Assembly (NCBI GenBank): GCA_014236755.1
Contig: JACCKY010000006.1
Coordinates: forward strand, 1 to 64,000
Reading direction: 5' to 3'
DNA from: Candidatus Petromonas tenebris
GTDB lineage: Bacteria; Bacillota; Clostridia; Peptostreptococcales; Caminicellaceae
DNA: 64,000 nt
The notes below the pieces were generated by a model that saw nothing but the letters and a program-made list of their open reading frames with translations, was not told the origin of the DNA and did not search any database. Numbering within the stretch: position 1 is the first letter of the stretch; each line of letters starts with the position of its first letter. Shown one piece after another: positions 8,220 through 63,968 of the stretch. Both the position numbers and the translations under genes were made by a program.

Positions 8220-8240
8220 TTACCCATAACCTGTAACCTG
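8220..8240. repeat. short heptanucleotide array between hydG and hydE
   Basis: Three successive 7-mers TTACCCA, TAACCTG and TAACCTG sit in the 120-bp gap between hydE and hydG. They match the unit type of the longer arrays elsewhere in the window. Nothing else is recognisable in the gap. Confidence 0.5.
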
Positions 8241-19020: not shown

Positions 19021-19028
19021 AGTAAATT

Positions 19029-19169
19029 CTTAAAAAGGTTAATACTTATAGAAAGAGCTTCCAGGTCCCAGGTGATAGTAAAGACCCTAAAAACTGACTT
19101 AAATTTACCAAGAGTCAAGAACTAGGAAGCAAGAACTAATAAAGTGCCGTAGGCACTTTTGTTTTTTTG
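19029..19169 (+). repeat. dispersed heptad element, copy 5 (eroded)
   Basis: Related to the longer copies: TTAAAAAGG head fragment, AGGTCCC/AGGTGAT units, AAGACCCTAAA, then AAGAGTC, AAGAACT, AGGAAGC and AAGAACT heptads. It ends in the hairpin AAAGTGCC-GTA-GGCACTTTTG followed by T7. On the plus strand this end is a good intrinsic terminator for the gene ending at 19020. Confidence 0.7.
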
Positions 19170-25656: not shown

Positions 25657-25936
25657 GAACAAAGGCGTCTTCGACGCATTTATTGGTTCGTAGTTAGTAG
25701 TTCGTAGTTGGTAGCCCTGATTAGCTCTTAGTTCTTAACTCTTGGCTCTTGGCAAATCCTAGTCGTTCTTTAGGATCTTTCTTGCGGCCCGTCACCTTTT
25801 TGCCATGAGCGGGCAGCAGTTAGCTGTTAGCCTTTTTAATATTTAACTGGTAAAAGTTTGTAATTTCTTGCATCCCTTGAATTTACTTTATTTTATACCT
25901 ACAATTTTTTCAAAAAATGTTTGAACTCCTAGACAA
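25657..25936 (-). repeat. dispersed heptad element, copy 1 (full length)
   Basis: About 280 bp. Read on the minus strand: head TTGTCTAGGAGTTCAAAC, an A/T-rich segment with a TATAAA, an ATTTCTTGCAT-type block, GCTAAC heptads, GGTGACGGG, AAAGATCCTAAAGAACG, GATTTGCC, AAGAGCC/AAGAGTT/AAGAACT heptads, AGGGCTACCAACT and ACGAACT heptads, and a tail hairpin GCGTCGAAGACGC followed by CTTTGTT. It fills most of the 550-bp gap between the LytS-type kinase gene and the next response regulator; the remainder (25525-25656 and 25937-26073) shows nothing recognisable. Confidence 0.85.
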
Positions 25937-34277: not shown

Positions 34278-34507
34278 GAACAAAGGCGTCTGGCGACACT
34301 TTGTTAGTTCGTAGTTAGTAGTTCGTAGTTGGTAGCCCTGATTAGCTCTTAGTTCTTAGCTCTTGGCTCTTGGCAAATCCTAGTCGTTCTTTAGGGTCTT
34401 TCTTGCGGCCTGTCACCTGGTAAAAGTTTGTAATTTCTTGCATCCCTTGAATTTACTTTGTTTTATACCTGCAATTTTTTTTAAAAAATGTTTGAGTTCC
34501 TTTGCCA
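34278..34507 (-). repeat. dispersed heptad element, copy 2
   Basis: About 230 bp, same orientation as copy 1, but lacking the block between GTCACC and TGGTAAAAG (the part with the GCTAAC heptads). The tail hairpin AACAAAG...CTTTGTT begins 2 bp after the TAA of the DsrE-like gene, so it is positioned as that gene's 3' hairpin. Confidence 0.85.
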
Positions 34508-41595: not shown

Positions 41596-41604
41596 GTCCT
41601 TGCA

Positions 41605-41805
41605 TAGGAATTCAAACATTTTTTGAAAAAAATTGCAGGTATAAAGCAAAGTAAATTCAAGCGATGCAAGAAATTACAAACTTTTACCAGTTAAATATTA
41701 AAAAGGCTAACAGCTAACAAGAGCCAAGAGCTAAGAACTAATTAGGGCTACCAACTACAAACTACTAACTACGAACCAACAAATGCGTCGAAGACGCCTT
41801 TGTTC
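41605..41805 (+). repeat. dispersed heptad element, copy 3
   Basis: About 200 bp, plus orientation: head AGGAATTCAAACA, AAAGCAAAGTAAATTCAAG, ATTACAAACTTTTACCAG, GCTAACA/GCTAACA heptads, then directly AAGAGCC, AAGAGCT and AAGAACT (the GGTGAC and GATTTGCC blocks are missing), ACCAACT/ACAAACT/ACTAACT/ACGAACC heptads and the tail hairpin GCGTCGAAGACGC with CTTTGTTC. Confidence 0.85.
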
Positions 41806-41857
41806 ATAGATATATTATAATGGTTTTCTCTGCTTGAAATAAAGTATTGTTTGATGT

Positions 41858-49109: not shown

Positions 49110-49158
49110 AAAGCTAATATTATTACTTTTATGCAGTAATGATATTAGCTATTATTTT
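49110..49158 (+). terminator. hairpin at the head of heptad element copy 4
   Basis: AGCTAATAT-ATTAC / GTAAT-ATATTAGCT, followed by ATTATTTTTG on the plus strand. Confidence 0.55.
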
Positions 49159-49432
49159 TGTCTAGGAGTTCAAACATTTTTTGAAAAAAATTGTAGGTAT
49201 AAAACAAAGTAAATTCAAGAGATGCAAGAAATTACAAACTTTCACCAGTTAAATATTAAAAAGGCTAACAGCTAACTGCTGACCGCTCATGTCAAAAAGG
49301 TGACAGGTGACGGGCTACAGGAAAGACCCTAAAGAACGGCCAGGATTTGCCAAGAGCCAAGAGCTAAGAACTAATTAGGGCTACCAACTACTAACTACGA
49401 ACTAACAAAGCGTCGCCAGACGCTTTGTTTTC
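49159..49432 (+). repeat. dispersed heptad element, copy 4 (full length)
   Basis: About 274 bp, plus orientation, all blocks present: head TGTCTAGGAGTTCAAACA, TATAAAACAAAG, GAAATTACAAACTTTCACC, GCTAACA/GCTAACT/GCTGACC heptads, AGGTGAC/AGGTGAC/GGGCTAC heptads, AAGACCCTAAAGAACG, GATTTGCC, AAGAGCC/AAGAGCT/AAGAACT heptads, ACCAACT/ACTAACT/ACGAACT heptads and the perfect tail hairpin AAAGCGTC-GCCA-GACGCTTT. It ends 7 bp before the phoU stop codon (opposite strand). Confidence 0.88.
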
Positions 49433-54369: not shown

Positions 54370-54490
54370 CCAGGACAAAGACATCTCCGACCCTTTGTTA
54401 GTTCTTAGCTCTTGGCAAATCCAGATCATTCTTTAGGGTTTTTCCTGTCACCTTTTTCTGCCATGATCCATTAACTATTAGTCATAAACT
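54370..54490 (-). repeat. dispersed heptad element, copy 6 (eroded)
   Basis: Read on the minus strand: GGTGACAGG, AAAACCCTAAAGAATG, GATTTGCC, AAGAGCT and AAGAACT heptads, then the tail AACAAAGGGTC...GATGTCTTTGTC. The order of blocks is the same as in copy 4. Confidence 0.75.
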
Positions 54491-54500
54491 CTTTTTTCAA

Positions 54501-58732: not shown

Positions 58733-59040
58733 AAAAACCTCCCATCCCTAAGACGTAATAACTCTATCTTAGGGACGAGAGATTATTCTCGCGGTACCAC
58801 CCTAATTTCTAATCAGTATAAACCAATCAGATCTCTATTCAGGTCGAAGGATGCTTTTCCTTGAACCTTAGCTGTGTAACGGCAGCAACCGGCCTCATCT
58901 ACTTGGCAACTTCCTTTTGATTCGGCAGCTCAGAAGTGATCATTACATATCCACTCTAACACCAACTTTCAGCAACCGTTGGCTCTCTGTAGTTAAAGCA
59001 TAGATATCTTTCTCTTCATCATAGCTTTTCTATGTGTTGT
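58733..59040 (-). promoter_or_regulatory. T-box leader of the ilv operon, Ile-specific
   Basis: The hallmark T-box sequence GGGTGGTACCGCG is at 58802-58790 (minus strand). Downstream of it is a strong terminator, TCCCTAAGA / TCTTAGGGA (58745-58775) with T6. The stem I segment reads TAATG-ATC-ACTTCTGAGC, giving specifier codon ATC (58940-58938), that is Ile, and the GGTTGCTGAAA-like conserved piece is present. Uncharged tRNA-Ile would relieve termination and switch on ilvM-ilvC-ilvB-ilvE. The 290 bp between it and the first gene contains no further gene on the minus strand. Confidence 0.92.
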
Positions 59041-63747: not shown

Positions 63748-63968
63748 TGTAGTGCAAAGACATCTGACGATGCTTTATTAGCTCTTAGCTATTGACATCT
63801 TTAGAGTATCAGGCACTTGCCATTAGACTCTGGGTAATAAACCTTGGGTATTATTTCATACCGTATAGGCACAATATATTGAGCCCTTACAGACTATCAC
63901 CTGTAACTTGTAACCGTCATCCTTTATCCTATTTCCTATATCCTATATCCTGTTACCTGTAACCTATT
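63748..63968 (-). repeat. dispersed heptad element, copy 7, with a ten-unit heptad array
   Basis: On the minus strand the hairpin end reads AATAAAGCATC-GTCA-GATGTCTTTGC after AAGAGCT. In plus-strand reading, 63899-63968 is an unbroken series of ten 7-mers: ACCTGTA, ACTTGTA, ACCGTCA, TCCTTTA, TCCTATT, TCCTATA, TCCTATA, TCCTGTT, ACCTGTA, ACCTATT. This is the clearest array in the window. The remaining bases to 64000 end with TGTAGCACAAAAGACATT, perhaps the next hairpin end. Confidence 0.75.

Follow-up and report, generated by a model that had tools for sequence, protein, structure and literature searches.

The window (the whole 64,000-nucleotide stretch analyzed here) lies on contig C53 of a 2.94-Mb draft genome (G000) of 120 contigs. 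Positions 25657 to 25936 carry, on the minus strand, an exact full-length copy of a dispersed repeat, which starts at 25936 (TTGTCTAGGAGTTC...) and ends at 25657 (...TTTGTTC). A preliminary description of this DNA had listed seven related intergenic elements and two smaller fragments. Its coordinates for this copy were exact, and nhmmer searches of the window revealed at least three more near-complete copies and several degraded ones (Table 1). The strong matches are those at 25657-25936, 34278-34506, ~41600-41806, and 49158-49430, and the diverged ones those at 19021-19144 and 54395-54494. The listed element at 63748 is marginal (match at 63755, E = 0.1), and the fragments at 8220 and 13981 proved to be short heptamer stretches only. 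The repeat family is genuine.

Table 1. Element copies in the window and the parts of the full-length copy at 25657-25936
Feature	Coordinates	Strand
Full-length copy, running from the 5' head at 25936 to the end of the hairpin tail at 25657	25657..25936	-
Head of this copy (TTGTCTAGGAGTTCAAACATTTTTTG...TTACCAG): A/T-rich 5' end whose conservation allows alignment between genera of the family	25847..25936	-
GCTAACA and GGTGACG heptamer blocks	25789..25833	-
AAGATCCTAAAGAACGACTAGGATTTGCC linker	25755..25788	-
AAGAGCT-type heptamer array	25721..25754	-
CTACGAA-type heptamer array	25680..25717	-
Tail: GCGTC-loop-GACGC hairpin with CAAA/TTTGTTC flanks	25657..25684	-
Diverged copy reduced to the middle blocks and the AAGAGCT array	19021..19144	+
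Copy with a 51-bp internal deletion	34278..34506	-
Copy without middle blocks, its head immediately preceded by the hairpin AAAATAGTC/GACTATTTT	41600..41806	+
Target hairpin and T-tract immediately before the 49159 copy	49110..49158	+
Full-length copy with two 7-bp losses within heptamer blocks	49158..49430	+
Diverged copy; terminator-like hairpin GATAAGATGGCAAAAGTCATCTTATTTTTTTT immediately before it	54395..54494	-
Degenerate hairpin tail (marginal match) and an extra heptamer array of the AGGATAT/AGGTAAC type	63748..63967	-

Read head first, the element comprises a head of ~90 bases (TTGTATAGGAACTCAAACATTTTTTGAAAAAATTGCAGGTATAAAACAAAGTAAATTCAAGGGATGCAAGAAATTACAAACTTTTACCAG), heptamer blocks in a fixed order with linkers of the AAGACCCTAAAGAA type, and a palindromic tail hairpin, GCGTC-loop-GACGC, flanked by CAAA and TTTGTTC. 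The 5' end is TTGTATAGG or ATAGTAAAGG and the 3' end is TTTGTTC. The common block order and the lack of a coding frame, both noted in the preliminary description, hold: no reading frame was found in the element, and no gene lies inside any copy examined. Comparison of the two ends gave a score of 5 against a shuffle mean of 4.8, so terminal inverted repeats beyond chance are absent. Other tails are often preceded by GGTAACG, CGAGTAG, and TTAAGAG heptamers and frequently have no recognizable head.

A genome-wide count had been proposed with the preliminary description. A pattern search of G000 returned 55 matches to a 24-base head core and 51 to the tail hairpin, and none with reversed-pattern controls; a genome search for the element gave at least 40 matches among those listed, with 194 candidates. 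A sample of whole contigs totaling 747 kb (25% of the genome) contained 33 elements, which extrapolates to about 130 copies genome-wide. Judged by simple ORF calls, 31 of the 33 lie in non-coding DNA, which makes up 13% of the sample. Contigs C30, C56, and C100 end inside element copies, and the draft assembly therefore probably breaks on them.

Autocorrelation at lag 7 identified 38 islands, 36 of them intergenic, against none in a third-order Markov control. Lag 14, with 20 islands, was the only other lag clearly raised, and no remaining lag exceeded 8. The claimed period of seven is thus real; it is less unusual than had been supposed, as heptanucleotides outnumber every other class of long simple repeat in most prokaryote genomes surveyed, with polymerase slippage as the proposed explanation (PMC4679880, PMC4692102). 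The clean loss of blocks among copies was borne out as well. Within the AAGAGCT and CTACGAA blocks, indels measured 7 bases eight times and 14 bases three times (11 of 13), the two larger deletions being of 35 and 38 bases, whereas the head showed indels of 1 to 4 bases and a single one of 40. The LSSR/STRR pattern, 7-mers in tandem that vary by unit-length indels, is found in the filling only and not in the element as a whole. A tail was present for 30 of 41 assessable heads, the other 11 having no recognizable one, and some copies have an internal deletion and retain both ends. Fixed ends, variable filling, and internally deleted forms with both ends are the pattern of a non-autonomous DNA element.

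Further inspection of the sequence preceding the head revealed a feature that is absent from the preliminary description and is the strongest clue to mechanism. In 36 of 50 distinct copies (72%), the head (TTGTATAGGAACTCAAACATTTTTT) stands directly behind an intrinsic-terminator hairpin and T-tract, scored as a fold of -8 kcal/mol or better in the 45 bases before the head. Such hairpins occur in 622 of 5,231 intergenic 45-mers (12%; Fisher P = 2e-22) and in 6% of shuffles. Because the last bases before the head are T-rich, the comparison was repeated with intergenic sites ending in the same 6-mers, of which 14% carried a hairpin. The hairpin sequences vary among copies; each is followed by a T-tract and then mostly by A. 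Of 22 cases that could be assessed, 17 have the upstream gene on the strand of the element (17:5, P = 0.017). Together with the hairpin enrichment, this places the element behind gene terminators and oriented like the gene, and the terminators are those of unrelated genes. The copy at 25657-25936 belongs to the minority with a weak hairpin before the head (-4.3 kcal/mol). Tail-to-head tandems also were observed (TTTGTTC^TTGTCTAGGAG and TTTGTTC^TTGCTAAGG, where ^ marks the junction), in which one element sits directly behind the tail hairpin of another. We conclude that the element almost certainly targets terminators and similar hairpins.

Two empty sites were recovered, and at both the insertion lies behind a hairpin and T-tract. 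The copy at C84:115252 lies within a repeat derived from a group II intron, element-free versions of which are present at L138, L139, and C22. The empty site reads AAGGTCTTA CTA AGTATTGG and the filled site AAGGTTTTA^TTTTTGCATAGG...CTTTTTTC^AGTATTGG, with ~3 bases lost. The copy at C100:71210 lies within an abundant palindromic repeat that has more than 30 empty copies, and here GAGCTGTTTT^ATAGAAAAG became GAGCTTTTTT^ATAGTAAAGG...TTTGTTC^ATACAAAAC. The empty site is GAGCTGTTTT^ATAGAAAAGATTTAGAGG and the filled site GAGCTTTTTT^ATAGTAAAGG...TTTGTTC^ATACAAAACATTTAGAGG. A copy in C35 (L021) begins at the same point of this palindromic repeat. The repeat itself is ~190 bp long (TTAACTTGCCTCGCTAGTTCC...GCACAAGAGGTTAA), is found at C100:69905-70039 and in more than 30 other places (e.g., L043:1570-1746 and C71:102541-102737), and resembles a MITE with inverted ends; it also is a landing site for the heptamer element.

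Neither empty/filled pair shows a clear target duplication. ATA is present at both junctions of the second site, but the head starts with ATAG in copies whatever follows the tail. From these two clean sites, absence of a target duplication is very probable. The proposal that this is an undescribed non-autonomous element agrees with the insertions seen at the two empty sites and with the absence of matches in Rfam and of relatives in phages and plasmids, both of which were searched. We are highly confident that the repeat is a mobile element.

The preliminary description had added that the element is perhaps transcribed, and a related reading is that the copies represent a functional regulatory or structural RNA family (a riboswitch-like leader, an attenuator, or an sRNA) duplicated together with genes and not mobile. 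The conserved block order and the terminator-like tail hairpin are in keeping with such a family. Scans of the window and of the copies against Rfam, at gathering and at relaxed thresholds, gave no match within the element, however. The fold of either strand was no better than that of shuffled sequence (z = -1.1 and -0.7), and the conserved head yielded no consensus structure, so the idea of an RNA element was not borne out. Copies also stand behind differing terminators and genes, and they sit inside other repeats that occur element-free. Taken together, these results make an RNA family of this kind very improbable. Rfam matches elsewhere were a T-box leader (RF00230, 125.8 bits) at 58768-59031 of the window, on the minus strand, and an M-box (ykoK) riboswitch (RF00380, 129 bits) at L018:1577-1741 (C53, ~86.1 kb), which adjoins an element copy.

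Related elements were identified in other genomes. G001, from the same family as G000, has ~20 heads, and a single head-like sequence was matched in each of G003 and G004. Heads aligned across genera with 77% mean column identity, and most of the copies examined in G001, G002, and Thermohalobacter lie behind terminator-like hairpins. Copies in related genera keep the tail hairpin and have heptamers of the AACTTGG or AAGAGCT type. The head, the hairpin tail, and the choice of target are conserved among related genera, with differing heptamer sequences. A scan with the tail pattern of GTDB genomes, a set that may not include the genome of the window, gave matches only in Thermohalobacter berrensis (Tissierellales) and a Clostridia MAG. 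At two loci, T. berrensis carries a different head (TTGTATAAGTAAGTATATTTCTATGAATTGCTGAAAT) that has the 5' end motif in common (L082:3323-3773 and L081:5950-6010). This head also is found behind terminator-like hairpins and possibly represents a sister family.

Perfect or near-perfect AACTACT heptamer arrays were seen close behind hairpins in other families of the order (L171, L187, L197, and L173 in G072 and G039), several of these loci having reverse-complement heptamers across the hairpin. That such arrays are common in the order was ruled out: they occur in 5 of 297 genomes. These loci bear on the notion that the arrays are the active part, arising by repeated 7-nt slippage or templated addition at terminator hairpins with the head hitchhiking. 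What would fit this is that the AACTACT arrays immediately follow terminator-like hairpins, in some cases with reverse-complement heptamers before the hairpin, and that heptamer sequence differs between genera while the period stays at 7. In G000, however, it is the head and not the array that sits at the terminator, and the precise empty sites require an insertion step. With the arrays limited to 5 of 297 genomes, we regard this notion as very unlikely.

The choice of target is shared with group IIC introns, which recognize a DNA stem-loop beside a T-rich site (PMC10190682); like the element, they lie directly behind stem-loops or terminators, in one orientation and with no target duplication. 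Such introns are present in G000: all five of its RVT_1 loci have group II intron RNA matches, and the 5' flanks that were read place them behind terminator-like hairpins. At terminator hairpins, the reverse transcriptase of a group IIC intron might copy a transcript of the element back into DNA. The absence of target duplication, as in retrohoming, and the copies that have a head and no tail are consistent with this. Unlike these introns, however, the element neither starts with GUGYG nor ends with AY, encodes no reverse transcriptase, and has no conserved RNA fold; it also is devoid of ribozyme domains, domain V included, as Rfam found none in it while matching the five reverse transcriptase loci. 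Terminator-side truncation, as expected from partial reverse transcription by an intron enzyme, was not seen; with 30 of 41 assessable heads retaining tails, we rejected the view that copies are strongly truncated on one side, as target-primed reverse transcription would leave them. Internally deleted copies with both ends suit a DNA element better. Finally, G001 gave no RVT_1 match despite its ~20 heads, which argues, for an 85% complete MAG, against a present need for an intron reverse transcriptase. Spread by this RNA-mediated route thus seems improbable, and the element shares its targets with group IIC introns but is not itself an intron. In one element copy, the head is interrupted by the remnant of a group II intron, the reverse transcriptase ORF of which is shortened (L140:1220-2300; C88:47510-48590; TTGTCT^AGAAGTTTAAACA).

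As a rule, a DDE transposase requires inverted repeats and duplicates its target. Neither feature is seen in the element, which in this also differs from classical DDE-derived MITEs. A DDE transposase or a site-specific recombinase that prefers T-tracts at the base of hairpins is in line with the failure to find an autonomous copy, and an oriented target with no inverted repeats would also suit an IS110-like enzyme or a recombinase of the serine or tyrosine type. There is, in addition, an apparent resemblance between the head and the oriIS of ISCR/IS91 elements. We obtained no match to an IS91-type Y2 transposase (PF04986) in G000, and the IS91-like loci fetched from relatives do not have the element ends; an IS91/ISCR origin was rejected on these grounds and kept as a lead. 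An enzyme of the DDE or recombinase kind is unlikely overall, if less so than the intron enzyme.

The mover that we prefer, tentatively and at somewhat less than even odds, is a Y1/HUH transposase supplied in trans. In its favor, the genomes in which the element has several copies do encode Y1 (RAYT-like) transposases (2 in G000, 7 in G001, and 8 in G002), and G004 gave seven or eight matches; against it, G003, with its single head-like match, has no Y1 gene. As in the IS200/IS605-RAYT group, there is no target duplication, and insertion is 3' of a T-tract mostly ending in A. As regards the subterminal hairpins of IS200/IS605 elements, the right-end hairpin is clear and the left end has no supported structure. 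A search for an autonomous element with these ends found none. The RAYT/IS200 genes were rejected as autonomous partners, as their flanks differ at the loci examined, and neither the head nor the tail lies around the Y1 loci examined. One 319-aa Y1 transposase-like gene is flanked by repeats, TCAAGCCTGACCCCTGACCCTTACA, that themselves have a 7-base step (CTGACCC; L085:2365-2425 in C13).

Several known repeats share individual features with the element. REP/REPIN sequences, which are linked to RAYT (Y1) enzymes, likewise are non-autonomous, hairpin bearing, mostly intergenic, and without inverted-repeat transposon ends, and CGTC-tagged REPs have no known dedicated transposase (PMC3733652). They are, however, palindromes of 20 to 40 bp with a tag and a dimer, whereas the element is 280 bp long with a long non-palindromic head and no tag or dimer architecture, and we found no report of strict terminator targeting for them. 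The pneumococcal SPRITE and BOX are likewise small dispersed intergenic repeats, the former terminator-like and near the 3' ends of genes and the latter modular (PMC3049150). SPRITE is the terminator-like structure itself, while the element inserts behind existing terminators, and neither SPRITE nor BOX has heptamer arrays. BrickBuilt of Porphyromonas gingivalis has a comparable plan of leader, tandem-repeat filling, and tail; all copies are intergenic, and terminators and/or polyadenylation sites are predicted to flank 10 of 19 (PMC4596501). Its unit is of 23 nt, and it is described as an inverted-repeat MITE. Heptamer repeats are known from Calothrix, from Xanthomonas and Nostoc (GGGAATC type) (PMC4692102), from Beggiatoaceae (TAACTGA) (PMC4679880), and from multicopy elements in Geobacter (PMC2700814). 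These too are intergenic tandem 7-mers, sometimes in multicopy elements, but they form arrays of one unit or families of sites; the element has several degenerate 7-mer blocks in a fixed order between fixed mobile ends.

The account that best accommodates these observations, and to which we give about even credence as a whole, is a non-autonomous mobile DNA element that inserts behind hairpins and is moved in trans by an HUH-type enzyme. The element inserts in a single orientation, directly 3' of a hairpin and T-tract, be it a terminator, a hairpin in another repeat, or the tail of another copy. The enzyme would act at the head on the left and at the tail hairpin plus TTTGTTC on the right; it would handle single-stranded hairpin DNA and would most likely be a Y1/HUH transposase of the IS200/RAYT kind. 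The heptamer arrays would be passenger DNA, lengthened and shortened by slippage or unequal exchange. The 11 of 41 heads that are tail-less are more than expected if both ends are needed; later deletion could explain them. A compact genome offers few places where insertion costs little, intrinsic terminators among them. Insertion behind one, with a hairpin at the far end of the element as well, probably is nearly harmless to the upstream gene.

A bolder reading, which we consider rather improbable, is that this family is the first to be recognized in a class of miniature elements that home to terminators and in which the heptamer arrays form in the course of insertion at the hairpin T-tract. 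A hairpin-recognizing polymerase or transposase would then make the heptamers, and, if true, this would explain the heptamer arrays behind terminator-like hairpins in other families of the order. We found no earlier account, in the open-access literature, of miniature elements, introns aside, that target intrinsic terminators. An element free of protein and intron provides a second, independent case of the target choice of group IIC introns, and one with sharply defined ends, two empty sites, and candidate enzymes that can be tested. The element also connects an old and unexplained observation, that heptanucleotide repeats abound in bacteria, with mobile elements and hairpin DNA.
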